Source of the DNA: Heterotrichella gracilis
Lineage: Eukaryota > Sar > Xanthophyceae > Tribonematales > Xanthonemataceae
Reading direction: 5' to 3'
Length of the DNA stretch: 64,000 nt
Assembly: GCA_032358255.1 (NCBI GenBank)
Contig: JAULBX010027163.1
Span: forward strand, 154,891 to 218,890
Shown here one piece after another: positions 6,496 to 50,163 of the stretch (within the stretch, counting starts at the first letter, position 1; each line of letters opens with the position of its first letter). Made by a program: the position numbers and the translations under genes. The notes beneath the pieces were generated by a model that made no database searches, was not told the origin of the DNA, and saw only the letters and a list, made by a program, of their open reading frames with translations.

Positions 6496-9400
6496 ATGCC
6501 CTCACGGCGCAAACGCCAGGCGCGGGGCAACTACGACGCTCAGTATGATTACGACGATGCCTACTCCCAAGAGCGGTTCGAGCAGTACCAGGAGCGTTTC
6601 GAGCGGTTCCATGACTACATGACCGCTAACGGTGGCGGGCCGCGCAGGAAGGACCGCCGCAGCTGCTACTGCATCACCGCCACCATGCTGCTGCTGCTGT
6701 TCTGCGTCTACATCGTGGCCTACCACGGTTCCTCCTCGCCGAAGGACAAAACCCTCCAGGAGCCTGACGTGGGCAGCGAGCACGAGACGGTGGGCCAGGG
6801 CGCAAAGCCCAGGAAGGGCAAACCCAGCGCTGGTTCGCCCAAGCACGGCAAGGGTCACGACAGCTTTGAAGCCCAGCCCAGCAAACCCGCCACCACCACC
6901 CCCAGCTGCAGCAGGAGGAGAAAACCCTCCTGCCCCGTGCGGGTGGCAGATTACTGGGGCCTGCCACCCAACCAGTGCAAGGCGGATACCACCTCGCCCT
7001 GCACCGAGGCGGCCTTCCCCACCCTGTACCTCCCCAACGACCACCTGCCGCCAGATTGGACCTGCGACGAGCTGGATGACAACAGCATAGGTGCCGAGGA
7101 GGCAGTGGACCTGTATTCCACGGTGCTGCTGCAGTTTGCTGTGGAGGTGCTGACGGAGCTGTCGGGGCTGCTGGAGGACCCTGTGCATGGCAGGGCTGAG
7201 GTGGTGAAGCGGTGGACGGTGATGACCCCAGAGGGGGTGGGGGCCGACCCCTACGACCCACAGGTAGGGGAACGGTGGAAACCCTAAATTCTAAACCCTA
7301 AACCCTAAATCAGAGTGATGACCCCAGAGGGGTTGGGCGCACTGGACCCTAAACCCTAAACCCTAAAGTGCAGGCAGGCGAAACAGTATATGTGACGGCC
7401 ACGCCTTCATTTCTTCCTCAACCAAACCCACCTGTTCACATTCAGGCTGCGCATTTAGAAATTAATGTATCTATTTCTATCAACCTCAGGTGGTGCGCAA
7501 TCTGCGCTGGCTGGCGTGCGTGCCCAAGGAGGAGGTGGACAGGATTATTGAGATGAAGCGGAGCGCAATGGCCAAGATAGACTTTGGCCGCTTTTTCTAC
7601 TTCCCACCAAACACAAAGTCTGCGGTTGGCTTCACACTACTCAGTAAGTTTAGGGTTTAGGTGTTGGGCTGCTGCAAGTTTAGGGTTTGGATTTAGGGTT
7701 TGGGCTTCAGGTGTAGGGTTTGGGGCTTCACGCTGCAAAGTGAGTTCCTTTTCCTGCCCCTGCCGCAATTTTAGGGTTTGGGTTTAGGGTGTTGGGGTGG
7801 TCGAGTCGCAGCTTTAGGGTTTAGGTGTAGGTCGAGGGTCCCGCAGTGCGCCTTGCCAAGAGTGCACTTGCACGCCAAGGCTGACTCGTGCACCCTGTCT
7901 GGGACCCGGCCCCACTGCAGTGCACTGTGGATGCATCCTGGAGCATGGGCATATAGGGATGTTGAGCATTTGGGAGCACGGCCATACATGCGCCTGGGAA
8001 CAAGGATCATGAACCACAGGCTCGCAGGTGACGATGGTGGTGCACGCGCAGGTTTGGCGGAGGTGGCGACTGTTGCGCACTTTGCCTACACCATGGCGGC
8101 GGAGATCGCGTGGGTGGTGTATGGGAGCTCGCTGCCAAGCTGGTGGGTGGTGGCTGGGGGTCCTGTCCAGGGGTGTGTCTGGCCAGTTGAGCGACTGCCT
8201 CTCTAGGGTTTAGGGTTTAGGGTTTAGGGTTTAAAGGCAATTTAATGAACGGGAGCGCGCTGCCCAGCTGGTGGGTGATGGCTGTATACGTTCTTTGAGT
8301 GAAAATGCAGGAGTAATCCTGGCTCGTTGCCTGACCCGCGCCCTGCCTCACAAGTTGCCAGTTACTGGTTGCGTGGCCGGCTGTTTAGGGTTCAAGGTGT
8401 AGGGCTTCCTACGGAGCGCGTCACCGAGATGCTCCACTCCACTCACTACCTCGCAGGTTCAGCGACGCGCCCGCGGACGACGGCCGGCCCGCCTTTTTTG
8501 TAGCGGTGGCCGCCCGCCTGCAGTCCCTGCTGCCCATGATCAACACCCTGGCGGTGCGCAACCTCATCCTGATAGTAGCCACCGCGCGCCTGACCCTGGC
8601 CAGCCCCTGGATGCCCTGGGCGCTGGTGCTGATGGATAGCTATGAGCGCACCTACGTCAAGCCCACGGTGGCCAACATGCGCAACCGGCCCGGGGACATG
8701 TTCCCGCAGTTTGTGGGTACGTCCAGGGTTTAGGATGTAGGGTGTATTCCCAAACCCAAGGGATTCATCGATTGCGGTCGATACATGGTGGCAGCAGCAG
8801 GTTGACCAAGCCAAACTCAGCCAATTGACTCCTTGCATTCTTGATATAACATCAAATCAACTTCCTCAGGAGGCTCCTGTCTCTTCAGTGCGATGACAGG
8901 AAACCGACTTTGAACTTACCCTCCCGTCCCTCCCGCAGGCCTGTTTGCCTCCATGCGCCTGCTGTACATCCCCCTGGGGATATCCATCTGGGTGCCATTC
9001 GCCCTGGTGGCATTCAAGTGGCTGCACTTCTTAAAAAAAAAAATTAGGAGGAAATCCTCTTGTTTTGATCACTTTCACTTCATACCGTGATGACATGAAA
9101 TTGAACTTGACTATTAACTTCCTGGCCCCCCTGCAGGCCTGTTTGCCTCCATGCGCCTATTGTACGTGCCCCTGGGGATCTCCATATGGGTGCCCTTTGC
9201 CCTGGTGGCATTCAACTGGCTGCACCGCATGGTGCGGGTGGATATGGTGCCCGTGGCGGTGCTGCTGGCGCAGATGGGGTACTGGGTGGGGGCGCTATTC
9301 TATGCGCTGCACGCCGCACATGAGCTAATGGGCGTGGCCCAGGTGGCGGGAGGTAGGGCAGGGCTTTTGTAGGGTTTTGAAGGGTGGAGGTAGGGTTTTC

Positions 9401-12400
9401 GAAGGGTTTTTGAAGGGTGCATTTGCATGGGCGGGATGCTATGGCATGGGCGCGGGGATCAGGTTTTGCTGATGGGGTTTTGGGTGGGGGTGCTGTTCTA
9501 CCTTGATCTGTAGGGTTTGGAGGGTGGAGATAGGGTCTTCGCAGGGTGCATGCGCATGGTTTTGCAAGGGTATTGCAAAGCTCTGTTGAGGGCAGGAAGG
9601 GGGTCTAGAGGGATGCATGCGCATGCCTTGACTGGGGCTGCTCAGGTAGGGCGATGGCGCAGCATGCTGATTTTCCAGATGATTCACTGGGTGGTTATGC
9701 GCTGCATGCGCAGAAAGAGATGCTCAGCATGACCTAGGTGGTGGGAGGTAGGGTTTCATCTAAGGTTGCTGAAGGGCAGCAATGTGGCATGGGGTGGATG
9801 CGCTGCTCAGCGCAGTGAAGGGGCATGTGGCAGGGAGTAGATATGCCTGCCCTGGTTTCAGCTTGGCTGCTTGGCTGAGGCGGTGTTATATACACGGCAG
9901 GCAGGTTGTCAACCTCATGCCAGGTGTTAAATTTTTCATGATGTAAAGGATCCCCGTTGCAAGCGGGTGTTGCTCCCCTTCATCCCCCCCTCTCACCCCT
10001 CACCCCCCTTCCACCCCCCACTCCCGCAGCCGCCTGTGCGATGACGCAGGAGGGGGAGGGGAGGGGGCTGGTGTCCCGGTGGTGGTGCGAGTCCAGCCAT
10101 GCCAGCCTGGAGCTGGCGCAGGCTGTGTTCAACCCCTGGGGCTACCCCGGGCTGCTGTCGGTGCTGGTGGTGGCGCATGCATATGACCAGCTGCTCCAGG
10201 TGAGGGGGAAAGTAGTAGTTAAATGGGAATCAATAGGAAGTAAATTGTGAATCAGCTCAATTTATACAGTTTAAGAATTGAACCAACTCAATTTACCATC
10301 GGATGTGTTGCAGGATTGGATTGCTGAGGAGACGCGCGACCACTCCGCCCTGGAGATGCCTATGCTTCTATAAACTGTGGCAAGGTTTTCCAACAGCATT
10401 CCGTTCTGTTTGCAGGATTGGATTGCGGAGGAGACGCGCGACAGCTCTGCCCGCTTTGTGCGCCTGGCCCGCCTTGCGCAGCACCCTCACAAGACCATGT
10501 GGGTGCTCAACCTGACGGAGGACGCGGTGGAGGTGCTGCTGAACGTGGCGCAGGATGTGCAGGAGCAGGAGGCCGACAGGGACGAGGTGCGGCCCCGTAA
10601 TGGCTGTTATGTTTGAACTAGGTGATGAAGTTGGGGGAAATTGTATTTTTTTGTGGCTAAGCAAGTATGTGCAGGAGCAGGAGGCGGGCAGGGATGAGCT
10701 GCGGCCACTTTTACGGTTTTTTGTTCATCTACAGTGCAAGAAAAAAGACAGCTCACAATATCCGTAAGAAACATTGGAATGTACAGTAATAAAAAATCAT
10801 GTTCAAATGTTTGATAGGTATCTCACACACATAAACATACATCAACATGTCAGTTAGATTGATGTTTAATTGTATGCAGTCTCACAATTCAGCCCCATTT
10901 AGCAGCCAGCATGGGGTTAAATGGGGCAGCGCAGGTCATGCATGCCACCCATTGCAAGTCCCTACTTCCTAAACCCTACCCGTGTGCAGGACGAGGGCGT
11001 GGCCCCTGGGCGCTACCCCACTGGGCGAGTGCTCAGCGCCTGCGCCATCAAGCTGCTTGACCTGGCGGTGTTCCACCTGGCGGCGTTTGGCCTGCGCCTG
11101 GTCATGTTCGCAGGTGCGGCCTGTCACCCTTGCTAGGGTTTTGCTGGGGTTGTGTGAAAGTAGCCCGTTCAGGTTTTAAGGGTAGTCTCCGTTCTTTGTC
11201 TGCGCTTTGCTCCAGGGTGGGTAGTGTGGTAGGGATTGCACAGGTGGCGTGGGGATGGGGTTGAGTTTCAGAACAGGAGGGGATGCGCCCCACATGTGCA
11301 GTTCCAGCACAACATTTGGTGCCGTAAACATGGAAAAAAGCTGTTCCTGCGCCTGGTCACCTGAGCTGCTAATTTCTGTGATTACTTGCTTGTGGTCATT
11401 TTGACAGGATGCTTGTAAAACCATTTGTATAATCCCTTCCATCCCCGCAGGCGAGTTCTTCCTCCTCACCTTCTCGGAGTTCCTGTGCCCCATCGCCCGG
11501 GGGGTGGCCCTGGTCTTCTTCCTCCTCTATCTCCTAGTCACCCGGGGCTGCTATTTCCTCCTGGACTGCATCGAGGACCCCGACTACGCAGCAGACACCA
11601 TCGGCAAAGGCTTCTCCCGGGGATTGGGCTTTTTCGGGAAGTGGACGGGGGCCACCTATGCTTTGGCGGTGCTGGTGACCCTGGTGACCCGGGTGGTGGT
11701 GGCGGGGCAGCCGTGGGTGGCGGCGGCTGCTGCGCCGGTGGGGGCTGGGGTGGCGGCGGTGGGGCGCGGGGTGGGCGGCGTGGCGGTGGCGGTGGCGCAG
11801 GGGGTGGCGGCGTCTTGCAGAGGTGTGGCGGGGGTTAATTGGGGATGTGGGGGGGTGCATTGCAATGTGTGCCGGGGTGGGGGGGTACTCTGGGTCATAG
11901 TGTGGGGTTCCCGTGTGATGCATGCATGTGGTTGGGAGCCAGTGAACTGATACGCAAGCGAGGTGTGCACTTGTTTGTCTGGGGATTGCTTGGAAGGCAC
12001 GTGTGTGTGATGGGGAGCCCAGTAGGGCACGCCCGAATCCGTGTATGCAAACCAAATTATCATGTTGTGTCAAAAACCCTAATCAAGGGTGCAAGCAAAC
12101 CCTAACCAGGGTATCTGTGGCATCTGCAGGAGCTGGCTCCCGCATGCAGCGGGTCGTGGACCTGGTGGTCGAAAAGCTGGAGGGAGACGGGGATGACAGG
12201 CAATCCCCAACCGAATCCAGCACCGCCCAGGGCCCGGCGCGCAAGGGGGGCAAGCCAGCCACCGCCGCCAAGGGGAAGTCGCAGCATGCCAAGGGGGCGC
12301 ACGCCCCCCCTCAGCAAGGGAAGAAGGGCAAGAAAGGCAAGGGGGGAGGCTACGGCGGGGGTTCGCGGGCCAGCAGCGACATGGGCCAGGCGGAACAGCG

Positions 12401-14917
12401 CGCTTCCTCGGACCTGCCAGGGGTGCGTGGTACTGAAGACGACGTGGGGGAGTCGTTGCCGGAGGGCGGGGATGCGGGGCCTATTCCCGACATTGTGCGG
12501 GAGCCTCAAAGGCAGGATTCCCACGAGGCGGCGAGTACCACCGCACCCCAACCGCGGCCGGCGCCAGCCCCAATCCCCACTGCAATCCCCACTGCCACCG
12601 TCGCTGTGGAGCAGCAGGGGGGTGGCAAGAAGCAGAAGGGCAAGGGGAGGAAACCCAGTATCCCCAACAGCGACCAGGGCACAAACCTTACCGTAGGGCT
12701 TCAACCACTCGCGCCCGCCCCTCCTCCGCAGCCGCACAAACCCTTTGCACCCCCTGCACCGCCTGCCAGCCGGCCGGCCCTAAACCCTAAGCAGCCAGCC
12801 ATGCCGGCCCTAAACCCTAAAGAGCCGATCAAGAAGAAGCCCAGGCAGATCATCCCCATCCCCCCCACCACAACCCCCCATCCAGGCCCCCGCGCCAAGC
12901 AGCCGCACGCGCGCACCCCGCAGCCTGACCTCCGCCTCCCCCGTTCCCCCAAGTCCTCCCACAGCGTCACACCCCCCTTGTCCCCCCACCACCCGTCCAG
13001 GGCAAGCAGCGCCTCCTCCCCCTCCTCCACCAACGTGCACTACGCCCCCTTCGCCTCCCCAGCACCCCCCACCCCCTCCTTCGCCCCCCCCCCACCCTCC
13101 GCCCCCACCTCCGGGGTGTGGAACCAATGGACGGCCTCCACTGCCTGGTCCCAGGGCATGCCATCGGTGACCTCCCCGCACGCGGCCCCAGGGGGGGCGA
13201 AACCCTTTGCACCCCCTCCCATTTCCACCACACTCAGCACGCACCCCTTGGAGCAGCCAACCTGGCAGCCGGGGCCGATTTCATCAAATTTCCCCCCCTC
13301 CTCCTCCGCCCCCTCACCCCTCATCTCCCGCAATTACGACCCCATGCACTACAGCCCAACCCCCGTGCAGCCCAGCGGGGATGCGCAGCACAACAGCTTC
13401 TTTTCCTACACACCCACCTCCCCAGCCACCTCCCCCACCACCCACCCCGCACCAGCCACCACCCCCACGTCGTGGGCCACTGCGGTCTCGGGCAGAGGGA
13501 GTGGGGGGGGTGGAGCCTCCCACCCCCCACCGCCGCCCCAGGAGTCCCCATCGCCCGCCGGCAGCTCGGGCCTGAGACCCTTCGCCGCGCCCTTTGTCCC
13601 CACCGGCACACCCTCTGGGGTAAACGCGCAGCGCCAGCTGGCACTCGACCCCTCCCTCCCCTCCTCCTCCTCCTCGTCTTTCTTCTCCTCCGCTCCCCCC
13701 CCTGCCTCGGGCTACGGCGCGCGCGGGGATCACGACGGGGACGGCGCCTACCCTATCCCAATGCCGATGCCGGTGCCGGTTCGGGCCCCGATCCTGGATG
13801 TGCTTCCGGATAGCTTGCTGGGTGACTCGGTGGGCAGCTATGGGGGCCGGCTGCCGGACGAGCTGCAGTGCGTGATGTGCATGGATGAGTACCGGCCCCG
13901 CGTGATGTTTGCAAAGTGCGGCCACCGCGCCATGTGCAGGTGGGTGGGGTGGGTGGGGTTGGGGGTGGGGTGGTGGTAGTGTAGGTGGTGGTGGTGGTGG
14001 TGTGGGTGGTGGTTGTGGAGTAATGTATGGCTGTTGGCTGTTTGCCCTGCACAGAGTATTAGAATTGGATGGTAATGCTGTGCATGGCGTGGGGTAGCCA
14101 CTAGCGCGTGACACTGCTCACTTCATTGCACAACATTACTCACAAACCTTAAACCCAAAACATGTTACATGATGCACCAACGGACTGCACATACCCGGCC
14201 CTGGCCTTAGCCACACAGTTCCATAAAATCACCTACCCTGACCCTGCCCACACAATCATGGGCCTAGTACTTCACTTACTATCCTCGCAAATTCGCAAAT
14301 CCACAAATGTTCAAATCCATGACCCTGTCCACAGCCCATGGCACTGACACGCCTGTTTCCATTACCCTGCTGTAGGGTTTGCAGTGAGCACTACATGCTG
14401 CGCTACGCCCACGAGCCCAATGGGGCGCCCTGCCCATTCTGTCAGCGCAGGTAAGGCCTCATCACGCACCTGCCAGTGCCATGTCAGGTGAAGGGTTTAG
14501 GGTTTAGGGCATCGCACAGGCCCACTATAGAAAAGGGTTGCTGGGTGCGGTATCAGTGACCGTATCCTTGTGGCTGAATGTGATTCTCCACTTGAAGCCC
14601 AAACCCGTATGCATACTCCACAGCCAGCTGCATGTGTCCCTACACCGCACTTTGCAGCGCTACTGTGCATCTGCACCCTAACCAAAACCCTTGCACATCC
14701 CTACTCCATCAATGCAGTGCTGAAGTCTTATGCCCTTGCCCTTGCCTTTCATTCCCAACACAGTGCGCTGAACCCTAGCTAGGGTGCTGTGCCCGCATGC
14801 ACAGTGCAGTGCCATTGCCCCACTCCAGCCCTGTGGCACAACCCCCCTCTTATGTGTTTGTGTGCGCTCCCCTGCCTCAGGATTGAGAGCTGGGTGGAGC
14901 GGGAGTACGTGGTGTGA
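6496..14917 (+). CDS. Large multi-pass membrane protein with C-terminal C3HC4 RING finger (putative E3 ubiquitin ligase)
   Basis: Twelve exons join in phase to 1423 residues: 6496-7263, 7490-7643, 8028-8142, 8457-8716, 9137-9352, 10030-10199, 10416-10586, 10990-11113, 11451-11822, 12130-13939, 14376-14450 and 14881-14917 (TGA). Residues 1-55 are charged; a hydrophobic helix follows at about 57-76. A middle part has several more hydrophobic segments (for example in the exons at 9137 and 11451). Exon 12130-13939 encodes about 540 residues of Pro/Ser-rich, probably disordered sequence. At about residue 1363 a RING begins: CVMC, then CGHRAMCRVC, then CPFC. RING domains recruit ubiquitin-conjugating enzymes, so a membrane-anchored ubiquitin ligase is the likely role; substrate is unknown. 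I do not recognise the membrane region as a named family. The chosen ATG directly follows an AG (ccacag), so an upstream exon is possible. Confidence 0.8.
7279..7367. repeat. Telomere-like CCCTAAA tracts in RING-gene intron 1
   Basis: Two tracts, 7279-7310 and 7347-7367, each with two to three CCCTAAA units, flank a partial copy of the exon end (a short gatgaccccagaggg-like stretch near 7316-7331 repeats exon sequence near 7222-7237). The tracts begin within 20 bases of the splice donor at 7264. Confidence 0.85.
7649..7829. repeat. Degenerate TTTAGGG-type tracts in RING-gene intron 2
   Basis: Scattered TTTAGGG and TTTGGG/TTTAGGTG variants on the plus strand begin just after the donor at 7644. 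The unit has the opposite orientation to the tracts in intron 1. Confidence 0.75.
8204..8233. repeat. Interstitial telomere-like tract (TTTAGGG)4
   Basis: Four perfect TTTAGGG units in the intron between RING-gene exons 8028-8142 and 8457-8716. It is the longest perfect telomere-like run noted in the window. Confidence 0.95.
8931..9029 (+). pseudogene. Truncated copy of RING-gene exon 9137-9352
   Basis: Sequence from the acceptor (cccgcag, ending 8938) through 9029 repeats the first about 91 bases of the exon at 9137 with roughly nine substitutions. It then breaks off into an A-rich run and an in-frame stop (CTTCTTAAAAA... region 9030-9042). Similarity also reaches some 40 bases into the preceding intron. 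The downstream copy is full length and its phase fits the neighbouring exons, so this upstream copy is treated as a dead exon fragment. Confidence 0.8.
10311..10352 (+). pseudogene. Truncated copy of the 5' end of RING-gene exon 10416-10586
   Basis: The acceptor plus about 40 bases (gattggattgctgaggaga onward) repeat the start of the exon at 10416 with a few substitutions, then diverge. It could act as a decoy acceptor, because both copies keep a usable tgcag. Confidence 0.8.
10666..10706 (+). pseudogene. Truncated copy of the 3' end of RING-gene exon 10416-10586
   Basis: About 40 bases (gtgcaggagcaggaggc onward) repeat the last bases of the exon ending at 10586 and a little of the following intron. 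The donor GT of the true exon (gacgag|gtgcgg) is changed to ct in the copy (gatgagctgcgg). Confidence 0.8.
12778..12821 (+). repeat. Telomere-like units inside a coding exon
   Basis: Two ccctaaaccctaa stretches (12778-12790 and 12808-12821) lie in the long Pro-rich exon of the RING gene. In frame they read ALNPK twice, so a telomere-type tract or its remnant is translated. Confidence 0.85.
13940..14010. repeat. GGTGGGT/GGTGGT microsatellite at a splice donor
   Basis: A run of GGTGGGG/GGTGGT repeats starts at the donor of RING-gene exon 12130-13939 and fills the first 70 bases of the intron. It is strongly G-rich on the transcribed-sense strand. Confidence 0.85.
14493..14509. repeat. Short TTTAGGG tract in the last RING-gene intron
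   Basis: GGGTTTAGGGTTTAGGG, two and a half units, in the intron before the final exon at 14881. Confidence 0.85.
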
Positions 14918-16468: not shown

Positions 16469-19400
16469 TTAGCACTTGAGCTTGCCCCAGGGACAGGTGA
16501 CGGTGGCGCCACAAGTGGTGAGCGCCTTGCGACGCTGGACGGCATCACTCCTGGGGTTGCTTCCCGCCACATCCGCGCCCCAAGCGCTGGTGTCCATGGC
16601 GTTGCCAGCTGGCGATTCCAAGGCAACGCCACCGTGAGCGCCTTCACCTGATTGGCTGCTGCTGCTGGTGGTGGTGTCATCCTCTGAATCAGATTTGGCC
16701 TCCTCAGTGGGTAGTGTGACACCTGGCGGCTGAGTTAGGGCATCTGGGATATCACTCTGCAGCTTCCGGCCGGTGAATACGGGGAAGAAGAAGCGGGCAA
16801 GTGGCGGCGGTGGCGGGCTGGGTGGCTTGGGGCTGGGTGGTGGGCTGGGTGGGAGGGGCGCGGGTGGCGGGGAGAGAGCTGCAAAGAGCATGAAGGGGGT
16901 GGGTTTAGGTGGGTGGTGGGCGCTGTGACGCTGTGCAGCCTGTGCATGGTTGCAAGTCGCAGACAGCCCGCCCCTGCATGTAGCCACTGTTTAAGGTTTA
17001 CGGCTTAGCGTTTCAGGGTTTAGGGTTTGCACAACAGCCACCGTGGTGGCATCACTCCAAGCTGTTGTGTGGCTGTTGTGTGATTTGCATGTACTACTGG
17101 GTTGGGCAAAATTGCAACTGGTAGGTTTCTCTGACATCTGCCATGGCAAATACTAAAAATGGCATTTCCTTGCCCTACCATGGATTGCAATAAACAAACA
17201 GAAACCCTACACTGTGGTGCAATCGCCAGGCAAACCCAATCTGTGGTGGATCCCTCCCCTCTCACCTGACGTGGCATCCCCCTTGACAGAATACATGATG
17301 ATGGTGGGGTTGGCGTCTGTGAGGTTGAAAATGTACCCCACATCACCATTGGGCAAGGCACTCCAGCCACTCGTGTACTCGTTGAGCACGATACTGAAGG
17401 GGGCCGCGGTCGAAGAGGGGTAAACCCTAAGGAGGGTGTACTTCACTGCCTCCTTGCACCCGTTGGGGAGGTTGCCTGCACAGCTGAACCGGAAGAAAAT
17501 CTTCTTGCCAGCAAAATCGGTGTTCACCTGCGATGTATTGGTGAAAGTGTAAGGCCAAAGACGCAGACCACCCGATTTGATTTCCCTTGAACGCAAGCGC
17601 TGCTAGATACAGCAGGGGGAATGATAAGGGGTTATCCTGTTGAAAGCATGATCATAGTCTTCACAGGCACGCATATAATCATGCAGGACAGGCGGTTTGG
17701 GTTTGCACGCTCTTGCCAAAACCCTCATGTAGGGTTTTCTACTCACCGCGGAGTCTGGCTGCTGGCGCAGCACAGAAGGGACCACTTCCGCCCAGTAGGG
17801 TGGCAGGCGATACCCTACGGAAGTTTTTGCAACAGGCAAGCAATTCTGCTGCAGCTGGGTGTTGGAGGCGGTGAGCGGGTCAAAGCTGGCTGGGCACAGG
17901 GTGAGCGCTGTCACTACATAGGGATCTGCAACCACATAGGGTAATTTGAGCGGATTGGCAGCACATTCAGGTTATGGTCAGGTTCTGGAAATTGACATGT
18001 TGGTTGACATGGGCGCTTTGCATTGGTGCACTTTGCGTTGTTGGACTGGCACTTTGCTTTGCAACAACAATCGTTTTTGGAAGCCCCAGGCACAACTCCC
18101 AGCAAACTTCGAATTGCTGCACACAGGCACGTACCATCCTTGGGGTAGGGGAAGTAAATCACTTCCAAAAAGTTGTACCCCGCGGTGGCCAGCGGGAACT
18201 GGCTCATGCTGTAGTCGCTGAACCTGCAGGGGCTGCTGAGGCTGCAGGTATCCAGCGAGGGCAGCAACTGTGTGGGGTACATGGGGATAGGCTGCGCGTC
18301 TGTGTTGCGGAAGGCCAGGGCAAGGTTGCTGAGCACCGAGGAGCATGTTGCTGCAGAGGCGGAGCATGAGCAGCCGATGCTGAAGTCGGCCAGGTTGGTG
18401 TATTTGGACTGCGGTGCAAGAGAGGAAGGGAGTTGGTGGGGCAGGGAGGGGATGGAGGAATTGGGCCCGCGCAGGGGAGGAGCCACAAGTGTTTATGGTT
18501 AACTTTGCTAGGAATATTGCTTTGTGTGACAAGGCGAGAGAGTACAGTCAGAGCCTTGTCCTTGTTCCAGGCGCGAAGCATGCCCAGCGCTGAGACACTA
18601 CCAGTCACACACCCTGCCACATGGGCAGCATGGCTCTGGCCATTTAATATATTGAGCCCCGCCCCCGTCTCTCCCCACACACACCTGGCGCGGCAGCCTT
18701 ACGGTCCAATATGCACTGCTGGTGTTGCTGTTGAAGGCCACGCTGAAGGCATCAAGCAGCCCCGCCTCACTGAACAGGTTGACCTGGCACTTGACGTCCA
18801 CGTTGACACAGGTGTCCCAATAGGACCCGCTGGGGGGGCCATTCGATGCTGAGCCCTGCTTGCACACCCCGCCGAGGTCCCTGACCCCACACCAGGGCGT
18901 TTCCTGGCGCTGGGGGTCCAAGGGGGTCCCCAGGCACCCGCCTGCTGCGGTGAACACCGGCGTGATGGCGCGGGTGCCTTCCCCGGGGTTGTATTTGAAT
19001 GGGGACTTGCAGGTGCACAGCTTTCCTGTGGACGGCGCCCGCGTGTCCATGCAGTAATCCAGGCTCTGCGTTGTGCTGCTGACTGTGTTGGTCAGCTGGG
19101 GCAGGGCCTGGCAGGTGGAAGTGTCCACCACGCACTGTGGATACCCTTCGTTAGGGTATGCGAAGAAGCACTGCGAGGCGGGGCTGGCGCCCAGCAGCAG
19201 CTGCCCCCGGTAGAACCTGTTGTAGCTGTAGGTGAAGGTGCTGTTGGCGCACTTGCAGCCCAGCGGGGTGATGGAAGCTGTGGGGGCGAAGGCTGTGGTC
19301 CCTGGGAAACAAGGGAAGGAGCAGAGTTGAAGTACATGGGGAGTACAGCAGCAGCTCCAAAGGTTGAGGAGCAAGTTGCAAGTGCTTTTAATGGTAAAGC

Positions 19401-19622
19401 CAGGATTGAGCCAAGTAGCCTTCCGAGATTAGTCAGAGTTTGGCAAGCTGCAGACTGCCAGAGCGAGAGGTGGGCGATGCCACGTTGCATCTATGATTGC
19501 ACATGCCAACACGTGCAGAGCGGCCAGGCTGCAGTACCTGCTGTGAAGCAGAAGAGGATGAGCAGCCAGGCCCCAAGACCCTGACAACATCTCGTTTGCA
19601 GGCTTCGTTCTTGGCGCATCAT
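16469..19622 (-). CDS. Secreted cysteine-rich protein with Pro-rich spacer (unnamed algal family, paralogue 1)
   Basis: Six exons join in phase: 19538-19622, 18685-19301, 18135-18408, 17747-17925, 17266-17599 and 16469-16878, about 632 residues. The ATG pair at 19622/19619 follows an in-frame TGA and opens a signal peptide with a WLLILFCFTAG hydrophobic core, so the protein should be secreted. Exon 2 has paired Cys motifs (CKC, CTC), GGCLG and TPWC; later exons have CSC and a LTLCP block. A (S)PPPSPKPPSPPPPP spacer typical of green-algal hydroxyproline-rich wall proteins precedes GRKLQ, an acidic Ser-rich stretch and a final CPWGKLKC. The donor of exon 2 could instead be the stronger GTAAGG after 18703, which also keeps phase and drops six residues. 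The gene at 20465 encodes a homologue. No named family was recognised; an extracellular-matrix role is inferred. Confidence 0.75.
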
Positions 19623-20464
19623 CTTATCTGGTACAGCAGTCCCCGGACTGGATTGTTGCCCTCAGAGCTGCACCTTCCTGGGTCCTGGGCGACTCAACGA
19701 CACCCGCACGGCTGTTGCGATTCAATAACACAGACTGCTGCGAGTCAAGGGCACTAGGGAAACCTTCGAGCGCGCCACAGGTACAGGGTGTTTTGGTTCG
19801 TAGCCTTCAAGTGCCCGCCGAGCTTGGCGGGGATGGCGCCATGGGTGGATGCGAGGGTTGATGGTGAGGGTACTTGCTACACACAAAGGATGAGGGCGGT
19901 TTTGCTGGACGTTTAGTTTCAGGATGCCTAGCAGATTAAGGGAGTTGCAACGTTTACCGACAAAACGTTTTTCCGAAAGTTTCCCGCAACGCCGACTCTG
20001 CAAATCATAAGCCAACTGGCATTTGCATTTGCGCCCCCTCCATTTACCCCTATCTGTCAAAATGTCAATATAGCCATGGTTCGAGGGTCCACCTCTGGTT
20101 TCACCCTCGACATTCGCTGCTAAACTTTCTAACCCCACAAACAAATATTGTCGTTTCTGGGGTCCAAGACAACTGGCATCTCTGTTCCTCGACAACTGGC
20201 AGGATACCTTCATCTTATAAGGAAGCACAGTTTTTGAGCTCGACAAAGTTCGGAACGGTGTTCGTGTTCCCGCTGTTCGCACTTGCATCGCTATCGCTTG
20301 ACGCATCCCTAGCACCCCTCTCTACCCACGCATCGCACTGCACGCAAGCGTATACACAGCAGCTACAGCTTTTGACCACCGTGATAACACGAAGCTTCCC
20401 GCAATACATGCATGCCATCTAAACAAGCCTCTTTGCAGCCAATACCCAGTTTGTAGCCCAAATT
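19623..20464. promoter_or_regulatory. Shared upstream region of the divergent secreted-protein pair
   Basis: 842 bases separate the two start codons of the head-to-head paralogues. No gene is seen here; minus-strand frames around 19722-20315 show no signature. The region must hold both 5' untranslated regions and both promoters, possibly a bidirectional one. No specific element was identified. Confidence 0.45.
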
Positions 20465-23400
20465 ATGGCGGCACGACACGTTCAGGGTTCACACCAACCA
20501 TTCTACTGGTCGACAGTCATCGCCATTGTGGGCTGGGTTGTGTTTGAACAAGGTGCGAGTCAGAATGCGGGTCTGCATGGCATGCCACGCGTAAGCCTTG
20601 GCCGCCACTTGGGCGACCCAACGGCAACGACCAGGGCCTGGATGTCTCACTGTGCACTTAATCTTCCTCGCATCCTGTTGTCATGTGGGTTTCCGAGCTA
20701 CAGCCAGCCTGCGCAAGGCGCTGTCCACCATTGCTGCAATCATCACCCGGTCCTTACAAAGTGTCCCTGCGTTGTTGCAGCTCGACCAGCAACAGGGGAT
20801 TTCAACCTAGCAGTGGACCGTACGGCTCGTGACTGTAGCTGCCTGAATGGTAACTGGACGTACCACGGTAGCTTAGAAGGCCAGTCGCTGGCATCGCCTG
20901 TGGCTGGGCCAGCCTGCACCTTTCCATACCCGTCAACAACTTACCCAGTTTGCAAAGTGGACCCGGCAAGCTGTGCGGTGACGCCATCTAGCTCCAACAA
21001 CAACGAGGTGTACGACGCCTGCATAGGTAAGGCGATGGAACTACTTCCTTGCACCCATGTCAGGCCCAGGCTGTATACCAATGCCAACATGTATACCAAT
21101 GCCAACACCCACATGCAAACATTCTGCAGGCACCACCGCCAAGCCAGGCAGCGCTGCGGGTTGCATCTGCAAGAGGGTTTACAACTATGGGGCGCCTACA
21201 AAAAATCTGACATTCACATCATCTGGTGGATGCCTTGGGTACCCAGCGGATGCCACCAAACCAGCAACCCCTTGGTGTGAGAAGCAAGCCAGCCCTACCT
21301 GCGGTGCAAGCCAATACATGCCTTGCGCAGGTGAGCTCTCGAGAAAGGCAGGCTGCCCTCTTAGATAAATACTTTCCTGAGCGCTTCAACGCCACCTGCT
21401 GTCACAAGCACAGCACGCCCTAGTGTATGTATGTACTCCCCTGCTGCAAAACTAAGCCCCTGCCACCCCCTCTCTGCAGCCAACTTCGTATGCCAAGTGG
21501 ACTTGTATAGCGCCACAGCCAAGCTCACAACATGGAGCTTTGGGTTTTCTACTGCAGACAACGCAGCCTTCTTCAAAGCTGACTGGAGCAAAAACGTGAG
21601 TTTTCCTTGAATAGGGTTTTGTGCTGTCCTCCTGCAGCTGCTATAATTTTATTTTTATTTTTACCGTGTCCACATTTGCAGCTGCTATCACCAACTCCAG
21701 CCAACCAAAGCCCAAACAGGCTCTTATTACATGATTTATTTTGCAGGCTGATTTCAGCGGCAAGCTGGCGACGTTCAACATCTCCTGCAGCTGTACAGGC
21801 AGCGCCACCAACTGCGCTGCAGCGGCGACTGCGACAACCATCAGCTTTCTGGACCCTGGCAGCGAGCAGCAGCAGCAGTGGTTGCCGCTGTACGCCACCG
21901 ACTACTTCGACCTGAACTCCTGCTTAGGCACCACCTGCAACTTTGACAACCTGGCGCCTGTAATTTGGTACCTGGGGTACGGCTCCTTCACAAGCATGGA
22001 GGTCACCATGATGAAGGGGTCCCTGCAAGGTGGGTACTATATTATTGAAATCTGGGAAATTGTTGCGGATATGACAGACACAAGGCATGCGCATCAGCGC
22101 GCACAGCATGGTCAAAGCACACGGGACGGCAGGCAATGCCGCATCGCAATGGGCATGTGGGCACGCGTAGAGGCTGGTAATTGCACATCTGAATATGCAC
22201 GCACCATGTGGCTGCATTTGTGCGCCATGAGACCTACCCAGTCATGTTTGTATGGCATGCCACATTTATCGCCGATATTACGTACTTCCCTTGCATGCAT
22301 TCCAGCAATGCAGCAAAGATTTGCAGCGAGTTTCTCAGCACATACGTGCGGCACCAAGCATGTCAGTCTTGGCACTACCTATACCATTTCGTGCACAAAT
22401 TGAGGCCTGCTGGTTGCTCATGCACATTACCTCGGATAATAAAATCCTTCAAATAAGCAAACCCTATATTACAGTTCCTTGTGTGCTCCTTCAGCCCCCT
22501 TCATCATGACCTCAGCGGTGCTGTGCCCAAGCGGCGTGGATGCTGCCACCGCCAGTGACGACCAGCTCCTGGCCTCATGCACGCCCGCGCTCAAGAGCTT
22601 CTGGTCCTACAACCTCACCGCCTACAACACCTTCCTCAATGTGCCCGCCATCATCAGTCGGCTGGACACCCCGGTAAGCGGCTCTGCACTATTGTCAACG
22701 CAAGAAACATGGATGATGGCCAACTGCGACATGGAATGTCCATGGTTGTAACATAGGAGCACAACATGCAGTGCCATTCACGTTGCATGGGTAGCCTAAA
22801 CCCTAAACCCTACACCCTACACTCAGACTGGCTATTGGCAATGTGTGTCTTACTACTGTGGTCAATGCAGGCATACACGGGCAGCGCTTCAGCGTCCGAC
22901 CCATGGCCCGTGCGGTCGCTGCGATTGAGCTTCTTCTGCACCAATGGCGCAGCATCGTGCCAGCAGGCGGTGGAGTCGAGCACCCTGCAGCTGTACTATG
23001 CAGGGGAGACCCAGGTGGTGGCATTCAGTTCCTACAAGCAGCAGCTCTCATGCTCCAACTCAACCCTGTGTACCTTCACATGGGCAACCTCAGCCACTCC
23101 CACCTCCATCAGATACAAAGTGCTTGGGCAGTTCAACAATGGTAGGTTGCCTGTCCTGCAATCTGGCATGTGCCAATGTGATCAGGAGTGCAATTGCAAC
23201 AGCCCCTGGGTGTTCATCATGCTGCTTGTCAGCAGGGGTATACTAATATACTAACAATTAGTATAGTTAAATACCCCTGATGTCAGCAGCTACTGCCTGT
23301 ACTTTTCAAATATTTTCGTCGGGCTAACACGGATGTTCTGCTTGCAGCTTTTGAACCTGCGGTACAAGGCAGAAAGCTACAGTCGTCAGCAACAACGCCA

Positions 23401-23517
23401 TCGGCTTCCACAACTGGCGATGTCAGCTGGCTAGAAGAGCTGCTGCCATCGCACCAAAGAAAATTGCAAACAACCGGCTGTGGGAAGAAGTGTCCTGGCG
23501 TAAAACCAAAGTGCTGA
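20465..23517 (+). CDS. Secreted cysteine-rich protein (unnamed algal family, paralogue 2)
   Basis: Eight exons join in phase to 517 residues: 20465-20552, 20781-21026, 21130-21330, 21480-21595, 21747-22029, 22495-22673, 22871-23141 and 23348-23517 (TGA 23515-23517). The ATG is the first after an in-frame TAA and starts a signal peptide (STVIAIVGWVVFEQG). The protein matches the minus-strand neighbour along its length: CSC and CIC pairs, GGCLG, TPWC, a CQVDLYS block (CQVNLFS in the neighbour), ISCSCTGSATNC, and AVLCPSGVD (LTLCPASFD there). It ends with GRKLQ, a second QRKLQ and a Cys/Lys tail (CGKKCPGVKPKC). The Pro-rich spacer of the partner is missing. The 179-bp exon 22495-22673 has the same length and phases as exon 17747-17925 of the partner. 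Function is unknown; secretion and a disulphide-rich matrix role are inferred. Confidence 0.8.
22797..22816. repeat. Telomere-like CCCTAAA tract in an intron
   Basis: Two CCCTAAA units followed by CCCTACA variants, in the intron between exons 22495-22673 and 22871-23141 of the plus-strand secreted protein. Confidence 0.85.
23233..23279. mobile_element. 47-bp foldback element with CAGGGGTAT termini (MITE candidate)
   Basis: The element starts CAGGGGTATACTAA and ends with the inverse (ATACCCCTG). The two 22-base arms agree at about 18 positions around a three-base loop. tgtcag occurs at 23227-23232 and again at 23281-23286, a likely target-site duplication with one base offset. It lies in the intron before the last exon of the secreted protein and shares termini with the element at 60438. 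Confidence 0.55.
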
Positions 23518-25216
23518 TATACCTGGGTGTCGGCCTGGGTCTCGGCTATATCATATGACTGACAATATATTCCAAACGCATGCAGCAAATTTTGGTCCCG
23601 AGTTGGCCTACCTTGGGCGATGGCTCTTCATCCTTTTCATTTAGCCTTCTTGCTTAAAGAAAACTACCAACTGAAGAACCTATTCGCTTATCTTTCCCTC
23701 TCTACTTCATATCTGATTTTGCTCCTGTCGCGACCCAATTTTGGCTGAGAGTGCTTTTTGCTCATCAGGGCTTAAATTAAGGTGCCATTTTCTGCCTGGA
23801 ACCTTCAATGACACTGCGTGTTTTGGTAGGAGAGGCTTGGGAGAAAATCAGCCACATGCAATCTGTCTCAAGCCCATCGAATGTTCCAACGATTGGGGAT
23901 GATTAGGGGCCTCCCCAGGGGACCAGCCCGTACCAGGTACTACATGGTAGGGGCCTCCCCAGCACCCCCCCCAGGGGAGCTTACAGGGCTCTCTTACTCC
24001 GCCGCTGTGGTTTCCCTTTTGTTTACTTTTTTCCTTCACGAATAAGGCTTGCTCTGGTGGTCCAAAGGGTGACTGCTAATGCTTGACAAGTGCAATGTAA
24101 CTAAATAAATAAGTTCATTTAACTGATTACGGTACACCGGCTGGCCATACAAAGATGTCAGTGGAATTGTTGATGCTTTGGCTGGAACGCCTTTGACCAT
24201 GGCAGTGTTTTGCGTTAGTTGCCGACTCTGTAGCAGATCTGTAGCAAATTATGCATGTGTGCTTCGCTAGACAGCTACATGCTGCAGCTGTAGCTCTGGC
24301 TTGAACTCTTATATGCATATGCCAGCAGTGATGCATCCCGGGATCCAGTTGTCTGCTTTGCTCACCTGTACCTACACTTGCGGCCACCACTCTGGAATTT
24401 TCTGAGTAACTCAGTTCCGGCTGGGAATGCCTTTTGTTTGTTTGTTTTGTAACTCAGTTCATCCAATTTCAAAGGGCACTGGCGCCAGTGGCAAGCTGCA
24501 GCTGTAGGCTACGCCAGTGGGTTCAGCATCACCTCCCACTGCAACTTGAACTAGCCACCCCCAAGGGCCTCGTAGAAATAGAAGGTTTGCGTTGAGAGAT
24601 TCATGCTGTGTGCAGCAAGGAATAAAGGTGCACCCCCTGGCTTGGTCTCTGGTCCTTTGCCGCATTGTCGAGTGGGCTAGGTGTCCTGGTGACCACACAC
24701 TGAAGTAGTCCTACACTGGTATTTCTGTCTCCCTTAGCTTAAAGCTATTTGACTCTGTAGCTGGTCAGTGTACGCACTCGCATGCACCGGCATGTACATC
24801 GGACACCTTGGACACGTGGGCCCAAGGCAGGTGTTGAGGCGAGGGTACCGCCACCAACCCATTGCCCCGCTTCCTCTCAACACCCGGGGTCCCTCCTCCT
24901 CTGTCGTTAACACCGGGCAGGGTCCTCCTCGAGGTGGCAGCAGCTCGTTCATCTCACATTGATACGCGTGTCTGACGCTAAGCCAGAGCTTCTGCACCTC
25001 TCAGCTTCTGGCAGAAGCTAAGTGTTGGCCATGACCTGGTACTTGCTTTATCACCGTACCGGCGCGCTGTTCGTCCAAGGTTTGTGTGAAAAGCCGTAGC
25101 ACAACCCCTTAATTGCTGCAACCAACGTATCTGTTCTCTCCTGCCCCATCCTGTTCAGTTTGGAACCACGATTGTTGATAGCCACACGGGGTTTGGTTCT
25201 TGAGTTTTGAGCGGTC
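23518..25216. other. Intergenic region, no gene seen
   Basis: This 1.7-kb stretch lies between two plus-strand genes. A taggggcctccccag motif occurs twice (about 23904-23919 and 23946-23961). TGTAA, the usual green-algal polyadenylation signal, occurs near 24096. The part before 25217 should contain the promoter of the dehydrogenase gene. No further coding pattern was found. Confidence 0.5.
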
Positions 25217-28200
25217 ATGTGCACAAGACTACTGGGCAGGGGCAGACTCCAGCTGCTCCTGCTTCAGGCCTGGTGGGTTGCCACGGCCTTGGATGCAACC
25301 TTGGATGTCAACTTCGCGCTTTTAGAGCTGCCACCGGGATTTGCCTTAACACTTTACTATAACGAGAGAATTCCCAACGCCCGCATGCTCACCCTTTCTG
25401 GAGACACTAACGAGCAGCACACCATCGTCTATGTTTCGAACAATGACGGAGGCGATAAAGTACGATCTTGCACCCAAAAGGGTTGGTTTTACTTTGGCAT
25501 CTACCTACTGCGGGCATTCCAAGGTTGAACTGTATATATGTGAGCCACTATCTATGCATGCATATGCTGCTTGTCACCTTGTATCACTCATGCAGGCTCC
25601 AATGCAGGCATCATATAAAAAGAAGTGGTTGCTGGATATAAGTTGCCTTGAACCCACTCCTCCCTATATATACACTAAACAACAAATATTACCCACAATA
25701 TATCCTGAATGTCTTTCCATACGGTCAGGTGTATGCACTAATAGACGACAACAACGATGGCACCGCCAACCGCATAACTACAATAATTTCTGGCGTCAAG
25801 AACCCACAAGGCATTGCCTGGCGCAATGGATCCCTTTTTGTGGCACAGCCGCACAGGGTGATGCGGTATGACAACGTGGATCTCTACGCATTGAATGGCC
25901 TGGTGAGTGTGCAGTGCTGGCTTTCATGCAATCTATTGTTATTTTTTTTACATTTGTGTGCACACCTTGCAAGATGTGTACAGGGTGAAATATGCTGATT
26001 GTTTTTGTGCTGGGTTGGCCTCGTGGAGTTGGTGCATGGCGCGAGCAAGAAATTGTGCCTTGTTGCATGCCCGCCTGTGCAGCTCTAGGCATACTGCGCA
26101 CCCCTTTGCAAGCAGTATTAAGTGATGCCACACCAGTTCAAAAATCCTGGTCACCATCGTGGATTAGTGCATGGTGTAAAATGGCTATCTTGCTGTTTGG
26201 TGGAGGCCCATCTGTGCAGCTCCTATTTACAAGGTGATTTGTGCATCGTAGACGTATGATGCCCCGTCCGCCATTATCAGCCAGGGGACACCAAACCAGG
26301 ACACCCACAGCGCCAAGTTCATAGCTTTTGGGCCCGATGACAAGCTGTACATCCCTGTTGGCGCCCCTTGTAACGTTTGCCCCTTGGAGTCATATGGCAA
26401 GATCAGCTATGGGTCGATCAACCGCATGAATCCAGACGGGACTGAACTGGAGACCTACGCTACTGGTGCGGGAAATTGCATCACACGCATTTCATGCACT
26501 CTGAAGCCGTGCTTCATCAAAACAGTTGTGCATTTTGTAACTAAAGCCCCACCTGCATGTGCCACTGGCAGTGGCCCACATAAGAACCTGCATTACAAAA
26601 GTTCGCTATTGTCAGGCCAACGGCGAAATATTCTCTTTCAGTAGACTGCAACAACTGAGGCATGAATCGTTCGTGCAGGCATACGCAACAGCGAAGGCTT
26701 TGACTGGCACCCAGTCACCGGGGAGATGTATTTTAGCAACAACGGCCGAGACAAAATGGGCAACGACCGGCCTGACTGCACGGTGTCATGGGCGCCGGAG
26801 CCCGGCATGTTCTTTGGGTTCCCTTACTGCCACAACAGTGGTGATGGTCCTCCTGAGGATCGGTACCCCGGGGTTGGGGACCCCATTTTTGACCCGGACG
26901 TCAACGCCGAGGGGCAGGTCTTGGATTGTTCAGGTAATAGTGGACTCAGCATGTGCATGCTGCAGTGAATTTACCAGTAGGCGCAATTCTGCCGACCGGC
27001 TGCTGGAACATGTGTCAAAGGACTGATCATGTCTACCCCGCCGCATCGTCAGCATTCCCACTCTTTTGCTGCATTGGGTGGTCGGAGCTGGACTTGGAGC
27101 AAAGTGTATGACCATGGTAGTCTGCATTACATTCTTAACATCCCTATCACTCCGCAACTTCTGCCAAGTTCAATGAAAAACCAGAAAAATAGAACTAAAA
27201 AGTTCAGAATATTTTGGAACATAGGGGAGAAAGTCAAAAGAAAAATAATGCTATAATTTTTATATTATTTATCCCTGGCCTGCAGACCCTCAGTCATTCA
27301 CGCGCGCGATCCAGGGCATGGGTCCCCACGTAGCACCCTTGGGCATGAAATTCTACACGGGGACCATGTTCCCCGAGGAGTATCACAATTCAATATTTGT
27401 GGCAGGTGGGTGCTCACATTCCCTCACGGCACGTTGCAGCACAGCCAGTGTAAGTTGAGCCTCAGCGTTGTGGTGCCTGGCACTGGTGTGCTACCGTACT
27501 TAGGCATGGAATGCTCACGAGGAAACACTGACGTTCTCCGGCAGCATAGGTGGTGGTCCACCCACCATTGCTTTTGTCACACCTGCTGCAGTATTTGTGT
27601 CCCCACGTGGCATGCGTCAATGGCGCATCATCTCTCTGGCCCAAACTCTCGGCGCACCCAATCTGGGGTGCGGGGCAGCACCATTAATATCTGCATGGCA
27701 CGCCCCTCACGGTGCGGCCCACTGTAGGGGTTCTGCAGTTGTGCCCGCATTGCCCCACTAATGCACCTGGTGGTCCACCTGGCCCCCCACCTCAAAATTC
27801 CTGGCAGCCTTACCCACTGCCATGTGCCGCGCCTGCAGAGCACGGCAGCTGGAACCGTGACAACCTGATTGGGTACCGTGTGGCCAATGTGAAGCTTGAT
27901 GCCAACAGCAGTGAGGTGGTGGACCACGAGGTGTTCATGCAGGGCTGGCTGCAGAACGAGAACACGCCGCAGCAGAACGCATGGGGTAAGTGTGGGCGCC
28001 AGGGTTTGTCCAGGCCCTGGGACAGTGGGGTTTGGGATGGCTACAGATAGGGCTAGCGCATGGCGTTCCCAGGGATTAGAGTTAATCCCTGGGGATTACA
28101 AGTATATTTCAGGTTGGTGGACTCTACGAAGCCTTGCAGACTTCCCAGACGAGGTAGCTGGTGTTAACCTAGCTACAGCGCCGTGCACCCCAATTGCTGG

Positions 28201-28598
28201 TAGGATTTACTGTCAGTTACTGTACTCCCACAGGTATACGACGTAGAATAATGTGCAGATTTAGCTGCCGCATGCTGTCATGCTCAGCTGCGGCTGCTGT
28301 CCTGTTGCTTCCCCCTGTACAATCCCTCCAATTGCAAATTGTAACCATTAACCGCAAGGGGGCATGATGCGTTTACCCAGCTAAGCTAGTCTCCTTGTCT
28401 TGTCTCCTTGTCTTTGCTGGAAATTGCCTTTGCTTAACAATTGCCTTTCCTGCAGGCCGCCCCGTTGCTGTGCTGGTGCTTCCTGACGGCTCCCTGCTTG
28501 TGAGCGATGACAAGGTGGGCGCGGTGTACCGCGTCACCTACGACCCGGAAGGCGCTGCCAATAGTGGGGCGCTCAACTACAAGCTGGGCAGCCGCTGA
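25217..28598 (+). CDS. Secreted sorbosone/glucose dehydrogenase-like beta-propeller (GSDH family)
   Basis: Eight exons in all: 25217-25459, 25729-25902, 26252-26465, 26679-26933, 27286-27405, 27839-27985 and 28456-28598 are certain and join in phase as seven coding exons to 431 residues (read the first word as seven). An N-terminal hydrophobic segment (LQLLLLQAWWVATA) looks like a signal peptide. Family blocks follow in order: NPQGIAWR, SEGFDWHPVTGEMYFSNNGRD, FFGFPYC, MGPHVAPLGMKFYTG, EHGSWNRDNLIGYRV and a final VLVLPDGSLLVSDD with YRVTYD. These match soluble PQQ-dependent sugar dehydrogenases and L-sorbosone dehydrogenases, six-bladed propellers that oxidise sugars or sugar aldehydes outside the cytosol. 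Substrate and cofactor cannot be read from sequence. Start is the first ATG of the open first exon. Confidence 0.85.
28069..28092. repeat. Perfect 10-bp-arm hairpin in an intron
   Basis: ccagggatta, a four-base loop (gagt), then taatccctgg, in the last intron of the dehydrogenase gene. Confidence 0.9.
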
Positions 28599-47094: not shown

Positions 47095-48370
47095 CTATTT
47101 GTAGTAGCTCTGCTTCCTGGACTGGGCACCAATCTGGCCCAAGGTGAGAGCCAGAAACAGGCCGACGTGGTAGGTGATGAGCAGCAGCCTGCACACAAGG
47201 CCAGCACGTCAGGGGAGGAGCGGGGAAGTACATGCACTTGTTGATCGGAAACAATACTGATTGCGCACTGTGCAGCTGTTTAATTTCTGATGCACACTTG
47301 TGGCAGCGCCACATGGGTTGACCTTCTCCAGCAGGACCTTTTAAGTCGCATGGGATTAATAAGTGCTTCAACCAGTGCCAGGGAAGAGCTGCGTGGCGTC
47401 GCATGCGCAAGACTGCCTGCTAATCTGGCAGTATTGCTGGAAAGCATGTAACTAACTACCTAACTTGTAACAGCGTTCCGCACCAGAACTTGTCGGTCAG
47501 GGCTGGGCCCGTGGGCCAGTGGGAGAGCTCCTCTCCGATGCTCTGTGTGAACAACCCGAACAGGGAGTTGCCGTTGAAAGCAGGCACTGGGATGTTGGCA
47601 GGGATGGTCCACCTGCACAGGCAGCCACAAGGGTTAGACTCAACCCGGCAGCAACTCTAGGCAGGGTCAATGGGTACACGCTACAGTTAGATGGGTTGGA
47701 GCTGGAATTAATGCCATGGCAGATGCAGCACCACTATCGACAAGTCATCTGCAGCGGCAACTTACCCCAAGAAGCCAGCCACAAACACTAATGGGTCGCT
47801 CTTGATCCAGTCCTTGGGGAACTCGGAACTGCAGAACAGGCAACACCTGAGTACTGAGTACTTGAGCCTGGCAGTCATGAAGCGGCACACAGCAACACTC
47901 TGGTGTGGCGGGGTGCAGATGGGCGGTGTTGAAAATTCACATCGTCCAAAATAGAGGTAGGATGAACCACAGAGCTGAGAGGTTTGGCTACTGGTGGGTA
48001 GATGACCACATTATTGTAGTAGTAGATGCGCGGTTCCGGTACAACGTTCCGTGCCACGAACTCACGTCATTGTCACAGCCTTGCGGGTAGCAGTCCTGCT
48101 GACGCGTGCGCGCACGCTGACCCTCAGGGAGGAGCCAGCAAAGCCTGCAGGGCCATCGCATAGGTGTCAGGAATAGGTGGGCATCAGGTCCATGCCAAGT
48201 GGAGGGGACATTCACACATCATCTAGCTAGTCGCCCACCACCAACCAGGCTTCCAATAGCAAGGTGTGCGTCAAGACCACTGACTGCCTCAAACGCCAGG
48301 AGTGGGTCGAAGTACCTGAGCGAGCTGACACCCGCACTGGGGATCCACCGATAAGGGTTGCCATTGCCAT
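47095..48370 (-). CDS. PSAO: Photosystem I subunit O precursor
   Basis: Five exons join in phase to 139 residues: 48316-48370, 48066-48144, 47766-47828, 47484-47612 and 47095-47188. PsaO is a two-helix subunit at the LHCII-docking side of photosystem I in the thylakoid membrane. Residues 1-45 (MAMATLIGGSP, then Arg/Ser/Ala-rich to ATRKAV) form a typical chloroplast transit peptide. The mature part matches the family: DWIKSDPLVFVAGFLGWTIP, IPVPAFNGNSLFGLF, SIGEELSHWPTGPALTDKFW, and LITYHVGLFLALTLGQIG. The start is set by exon 48316, whose two ATGs open the transit peptide; the longer frame through it on another register is not used. It shows the organism is photosynthetic and of the green lineage. 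Confidence 0.9.
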
Positions 48371-49155: not shown

Positions 49156-50163
49156 CTATGTCCAGTCGTCTGCCTCCCCAAACGCGCCGCTCTCCACCTT
49201 CTTCTTGACCCGCAGTAGCAGAGCTGTCTTCCATGGATCCAGGCGCGTCAAGGAGTCAAACTCAGCCAAGTGGTCCTGGAACTTGTCGACATCCCCCCCC
49301 TCCACAGCCTCAGCAAGGTCCTCCAGCAGCTTGCACTCCCTGCTGCCCGCAAAGGAGATGTCGATGTCCTTGTACTTCTCCACGGCGTTGCGCACCGCCA
49401 CCATGTCCCCCAGGCACAGCTGGCAGATCCCGGCGTTGAGCAGGTAGCCCTTGGCGCTGTACTTCAGCAGGTTGTTCTCCGCTGAAGACCGCGCCACATC
49501 CTCGTACACCTCGATTGCCTGCGGTGGTGTGAAAAGGGGGTTCAACAAGCGGTGGAGGCGAAGCAAGTGGATTATGCAACTGTGCACGGCGCCTTAACTG
49601 AGTTAGCTTAACTCCTGTAAAGGTGTGGGAACACGCAGGGAAACGCCTCCTACCTGCCCATATTGCTCGAGCTCTGCGCTGAACTGTGCAACCTTCAGCC
49701 GACACTTGTTAGCCTCTGCTGTGCTCTCCTCCCCAGAGAACAGGTCTGCAGCTTGCAGGTAGAACTGCATGCACTCCTCCTTCTGGCCCTGCTTCTCTTG
49801 CAACTCAGCTATCTCCTTGAGGTTCCTGGCTGCCATGCCCAGCCTGCCCATGTCACTGTATATCGCCACTGCACAGTTGAGGCACTTGATTGCGTCCTTG
49901 GTGTTGACCTTCATGTAGCACTTGGCAGCTTCAACAAAGGCTGTGGCAGAGTCGTGCTTGCTCTCAAGCTTGGCTTGTACTTCAGCCAGCTTCAAGAAGG
50001 CATTGCCAGCTTCAATCCAGTTCTTTGCGAGCTTGAACTGGTTGCCAGCCTTCTCCAGAAGATCAGCGGCATCGTCGTACTTGTTGCCGAAGAAGCCAAA
50101 GCTTTTCAGCTTCTTCTCTGCTTTTGCAATGTACTCATATGCTTTCTTCTCTGCGTCGCTCAT
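49156..50163 (-). CDS. Alpha-soluble NSF attachment protein (alpha-SNAP)
   Basis: Two exons, 49654-50163 and 49156-49518, join in phase 0 to 290 residues, the usual length. Alpha-SNAP links the ATPase NSF to SNARE complexes for their disassembly after membrane fusion in the cytosol. It starts MSDAEKKAYEYIAKAEKKLK and continues FFGNKYDDAADLLEKAGNQF, the N-terminal TPR-like helices. EAGNAFLKLAEVQ, EAAKCYMKV and AIEVYEDVARSS follow, and it ends in the conserved LTRLDPWKTALLLRVK block, the region that stimulates NSF. The single intron and strong conservation make this one of the safest calls. Confidence 0.95.

Follow-up and report, generated by a model that had tools for sequence, protein, structure and literature searches.

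Two neighbouring genes, A and B, in a window of 64,000 nucleotides (the whole stretch of DNA that was analysed) encode cysteine-rich proteins which, judged by their sequences, are paralogues. The best explanation of the pair, which we hold at about an even chance, is that both products are secreted, disulphide-rich and N-glycosylated, with a structural or adhesive role in the wall or matrix of a photosynthetic and probably green alga, and derived from an old inverted tandem duplication, with A fixed by a proline-rich rod and B rod-less.

Gene models and intergenic region

The two genes lie head to head on opposite strands, gene A at 16469 to 19622 on the reverse strand and gene B at 20465 to 23517 on the forward strand, with 842 bases between their start codons (at 19622 and 20465) and with stop codons ending at 16469 and 23517, respectively. 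The original prediction had given both the outer limits and the head-to-head spacing, and these were exact. The genes were reconstructed by three-frame translation of both gene strands followed by splicing, and the exon limits were set by splice consensus and homology, other acceptors being possible, for example at exon 5 of A. The spliced open frame of A encodes 632 amino acids in six exons (19622-19538, 19301-18685, 18408-18135, 17925-17747, 17599-17266 and 16878-16469), and that of B encodes 517 amino acids in eight exons (20465-20552, 20781-21026, 21130-21330, 21480-21595, 21747-22029, 22495-22673, 22871-23141 and 23348-23517). All 12 introns, five in A and seven in B, are of the GT-AG type.

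The 842-base intergenic region (19623 to 20464; GC 0.52) is a possible shared promoter. The word TATA[AT]A was absent from it on both strands, and a single CCAAT was found, on the forward strand about 26 bases ahead of the start codon of B. The spacing is permissive for co-regulation of the two genes, which may be co-expressed.

Regions along the proteins

The two proteins can be followed region by region. The N-terminal cysteine region of A, with two CxC stretches, GGCLG, TPWC and CQVNLFS, is carried by exon 2 (18685 to 19301, reverse strand) and aligned with exons 2 to 4 of B (20781 to 21595, forward strand, with two introns within). The second region, with the CSC, LCP and FSC blocks, spans exons 3 to 5 of A (17266 to 18408, reverse strand, with two introns within) and aligned with exons 5 to 7 of B (21747 to 23141, forward strand, also with two introns within). 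In translation, exon 6 of A (16469 to 16878, reverse strand) consists of a proline-rich spacer, GRKLQ, a Ser/Thr/acid stretch, RRKAL and a C-terminal Cys-Lys tail, and exon 8 of B (23348 to 23517, forward strand) carries GRKLQ, QRKLQ and a C-terminal Cys-Lys tail without the proline-rich spacer. The shared elements named beforehand, namely the CxC pairs, GGCLG, TPWC, CQV(N/D)L(F/Y)S, CSC, LCP, GRKLQ and a tail ending in Cys, were thus all found aligned in A and B, and the spacer foreseen in one protein is that of A, where about 24 residues of the SPPP/PPSPPP kind open the last exon and have no counterpart in B.

The tails read C-x(5)-CPWGKLKC or C-x(3)-CPGVKPKC in the two proteins, with Cys as the final residue, and the pattern C-x(3 or 5)-C-P-x-x-K-x-K-C-stop had only two matches in the six-frame translation of the window, one in A and one in B. 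That this pattern follows basic sites in both proteins, and that GRKLQ is retained while its flanks diverge, would suit a reading of A and B as precursors whose C-terminal segment is cut at the basic sites, freeing a Cys-Lys peptide with a signalling or antimicrobial role. We consider it unlikely, since the large cysteine-rich body is conserved lengthwise and the tail is therefore not the sole constrained part, and the tail is short, with three Cys and putative processing.

By eye, internal duplication was suspected both between the two N-terminal CxC stretches and between the two later regions, and repeats are not claimed here. Neither hhalign repeat score (11.1 and 11.9) reached the ten highest values from its own 30 column shuffles, which peaked at 19.9 and 15.8, respectively, and the global shuffle tests gave low tail fractions in three of eight cases (0.001, 0.019 and 0.022) and values of 0.17 to 0.92 in the other five. 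Repeats are possible in the later region of A and B. A fibronectin-II or kringle-like identity for the CxC...WC stretches received no support from Pfam.

Homology, cysteine framework and intron positions

The homology that had been proposed for the two proteins was borne out. In BLASTP, A matched B with 130 bits and an E-value of 1e-36, with 128 of 468 positions identical (27%), and the local alignment score was 426 in comparison to a top score of 86 among 1000 shuffles of B. Beyond the leader, Cys faces Cys in 24 columns, out of 25 Cys in A and 27 in B; the total for A is 28, of which three are in the leader and C175 faces a gap in B. When only the 475 columns with a residue in both proteins beyond the leader were counted, A had 24 Cys and B had 27, and 24 coincided in comparison to 1.4 expected, while the shuffle-and-realign controls (n = 200) gave at most 10 such columns. 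Outside the Cys columns and beyond the leader, 129 of 448 positions were identical.

The introns of A fall at alignment columns 44, 250, 347, 407 and 519 with phases 1, 0, 1, 0 and 1, and those of B at columns 41, 250, 347, 424 and 519 with the same phases, in addition to introns at columns 129 and 212 that are found in B only. Three introns therefore coincide in both column and phase (250, 347 and 519; phases 0, 1 and 1), and two further introns of A are matched in phase to nearby introns of B at a distance of 3 columns, in the leader, and of 17 columns. The 41/44 offset lies within the poorly aligned leader, and the 407/424 introns flank an 18-residue gap. The common positions and phases support the view that a single gene, already carrying introns, was duplicated to give A and B.

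Little similarity between the two genes remains in the DNA itself, which suggests that the duplication is old. The identity by codon position was 0.473, 0.507 and 0.366, and the NG86 estimates were 0.84 for dN and 2.06 for dS, the latter being near saturation, so that they indicate constraint only roughly. An inverted duplication was not supported at the DNA level by blastn of the two halves, which gave only matches of 14 to 18 bases with E-values of 0.038 to 0.13. In the best explanation, the pair would have come from one ancestral gene, in a probably green alga, through an old inverted tandem duplication.

The strong divergence of A and B, at 27% identity with the cysteine framework kept, could also be read in another way, as many recognition proteins combine diverged sequence with a retained cysteine framework. 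A and B might accordingly be recognition proteins, soluble outside the cell or placed at its surface (lectin-like, gamete-related or defence-related), the proline-rich stretch of A being merely a stalk, and the missing rod of B fits with such a role. No family match and no PDB sequence match to a lectin or receptor domain was found for either protein, and the low-pLDDT models give no fold evidence for or against it. We regard this role as a tentative minority possibility.

Leader and secretion

Signal peptides were called by hydropathy alone. Exon 1 of A (19538 to 19622, reverse strand) encodes a hydrophobic leader with a Kyte-Doolittle 17-residue maximum of 1.80 at residue 18, in comparison to a maximum of 1.32 past the leader, and is a putative signal peptide. 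Exon 1 of B (20465 to 20552, forward strand) encodes a moderately hydrophobic leader with a maximum of 1.36 at residues 11-12, scarcely greater than the later maximum of 1.29, and the signal peptide of B is thus less certain; the leader may be a signal peptide, a signal anchor or neither. Of the signal peptides attributed to both proteins beforehand, that of A was therefore clear and that of B was weak. Four N-glycosylation sequons were found in A and five in B. The attribution of both proteins to the secreted class is supported by this anatomy, that is, by the common Cys, the sequons and the leader of A, and is held back by the weak leader of B. Both proteins are putatively secreted, disulphide-bonded and glycosylated, with secretion being less secure for B.

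Searches for families, relatives and structures

In the Pfam-A hmmscan with E-values up to 10, B had no match and A matched only DUF2650, with an E-value of 0.24, below the cut-off and in the leader only. The NCBIfam search of A and B with E-values up to 1 gave no match. PHROGs gave nothing significant; its two matches, each with an E-value of 0.16 and falling in B, were taken as noise. Profile searches of PDB with E-values up to 10 gave no matches for the A-B alignment or for its central part, in which the first row has 249 residues. The expectation that the pair has no recognisable family was therefore upheld in the Pfam, NCBIfam, PHROGs and PDB sequence searches, none of which gave a significant match to A or B, and the further proposal of an undescribed family stands in so far as these libraries reach and says nothing beyond them. 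Among the matches listed in the literature search, no title or abstract opening was recognisably on the family of A and B.

No third member of the family was found in the window, where all 13 hmmsearch hits (E-values up to 1) fell within A or B; BLASTP gave three matches elsewhere in the window, with E-values of 0.10 to 0.67. Each scan of contigs for relatives was seeded with between two and six short peptide patterns. No relative of A or B was found in the viral contigs with the queries A1, A7 and B alone or with the GGCLG...TPWC DNA pattern, or in the prokaryotic contigs with the queries A1 and A7. As a control, one exon of the conserved eukaryotic neighbour alpha-SNAP also had no match in the viral contigs, so that the absence of relatives in these scans says little, and viral and prokaryotic contig collections are poor places for algal genes.

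Structure prediction gave low confidence both for exon 5 of A together with exon 7 of B (mean pLDDT 42.8) and for exon 2 of A together with two fragments of B (mean pLDDT 35.3), the latter from an alignment that left out the row of B exon 4 and was trimmed at the ends of exons 2 and 3 of B. These exon-sized models were not used because of their low confidence, and they lend no fold support to any role.

Genomic neighbourhood

The pieces identified by Pfam near the pair were PsaO, MsrA, alpha-SNAP, a bromodomain protein, COX7a and EMC2. The PsaO gene, which encodes a photosystem I subunit, is split by introns and lies on the reverse strand at about 47095 to 48370 (ends judged by eye), with a domain E-value of 3.8e-15. 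It matched 18 different PDB sequences of photosystem I subunits, the best of which are presumably Chlamydomonas entries and at least one weak match presumably a red alga, and its presence indicates that the contig is nuclear DNA of a photosynthetic eukaryote. The host is probably a green alga, although PsaO by itself is no proof of this. The alpha-SNAP gene is at 49165 to 50187 on the reverse strand, in two pieces with Pfam SNAP E-values of 3.9e-52 and 8e-47, and its best PDB matches were alpha-SNAP chains.

Downstream of B on the forward strand, the open pieces at 25211 to 28592 are probably one gene, with weak matches below the cut-off to glucose/sorbosone dehydrogenase (E 0.0026) and to DUF7133 (E 0.0001). 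A Pro/Ser-rich open frame of 580 amino acids at 12153 to 13892 on the forward strand had no Pfam match at E 0.001; it ends in CVMCMDEY, which may begin a RING-like motif. The telomere-like words CCCTAAA/TTTAGGG occurred 34 times in the 64 kb in comparison to a first-order Markov mean of 6.1 and maximum of 13 (n = 20), for example at 7282-7361, 7649-7813 and 8204-8223, some of them in tandem, and one lies within an intron of A (17019) and one within an intron of B (22801). No RNA families or tRNAs were found in the window, the GC content of which is mostly 0.50 to 0.60.

Possible function of the pair

If A and B are wall or matrix proteins, their products would enter the secretory pathway through the N-terminal leader, fold as disulphide-stabilised modules held by the 24 common Cys outside the leader, become N-glycosylated, and take on a structural or adhesive role. 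A would be anchored in the wall by its PPSPPP-type, hydroxyproline-like rod, and its partner B, being rod-less, would move more freely or be placed elsewhere. The C-terminal segment, with its basic sites (GRKLQ, followed by RRKAL or QRKLQ) and Cys-Lys end, may be cleaved on maturation or used for cross-linking. From sequence features, a location in the wall and the processing and function of the tail can be suggested for both proteins, and the wall role of the pair leans on A because B is without the proline-rich spacer. The extracellular-matrix family put forward in the original prediction is plausible, the spacer of A and the cysteine content being in its favour and the missing spacer of B against it.

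Many secreted green-algal proteins outside the volvocine models are without a named family. A and B plausibly make a candidate unnamed algal family, but proteins of this kind are already expected in green algae. We also put forward, as a rather unlikely proposal, that they represent an algal family not yet described, whose modular extracellular proteins share a fixed framework of 24 Cys and a cleavable, Cys-ended tail. The two would have been kept as a divergent head-to-head pair, with a hydroxyproline-type rod gained by one member or lost from the other to give wall-bound and free forms. With its fixed cysteine framework, common intron positions and the comparison of a rod-bearing with a rod-less member, the pair provides a starting point at the gene level, and its importance would grow if related proteins of other algae prove to keep the cysteine framework and the tail.

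Comparison with known wall and matrix proteins

Sequence of the SPPP/PPSPPP type, as in the spacer of the putatively secreted A, is of the kind that is hydroxylated and O-glycosylated in hydroxyproline-rich glycoproteins and extensin-like chimeric wall proteins. This spacer is short, at about 24 residues, B has none, and A and B are mostly cysteine-rich.

The pherophorins are green-algal (volvocine) matrix glycoproteins which combine globular parts with a proline-rich rod, a likeness that is found in A only. The photosynthetic and probably green host, the cysteine content and the spacer of A would be in keeping with A and B being diverged pherophorins, or members of some other known matrix family of the volvocine algae, overlooked by the profile search. 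However, no pherophorin model appeared in the Pfam scans of A and B at E-values up to 10, and such an origin appears very improbable to us. The profile concerned is PF12499, which we take to be that of pherophorin; it was unmatched by A and B in this Pfam-A search, in which the HMMER filters discard the majority of matches weaker than E 0.1 and which was run without a pherophorin as positive control.

As described in PMC9818292, the pherophorin layout is a dumbbell, with a rod between two globular domains. Compared with that description, the rod of A follows the cysteine-rich modules and precedes the tail, and B is rod-less. Judged by the titles in the references of PMC9818292, the Volvox VCRPs are titled 'small', in comparison to 632 amino acids for A and 517 for B, and by the same titles they are likewise extracellular, cysteine-rich and green algal.
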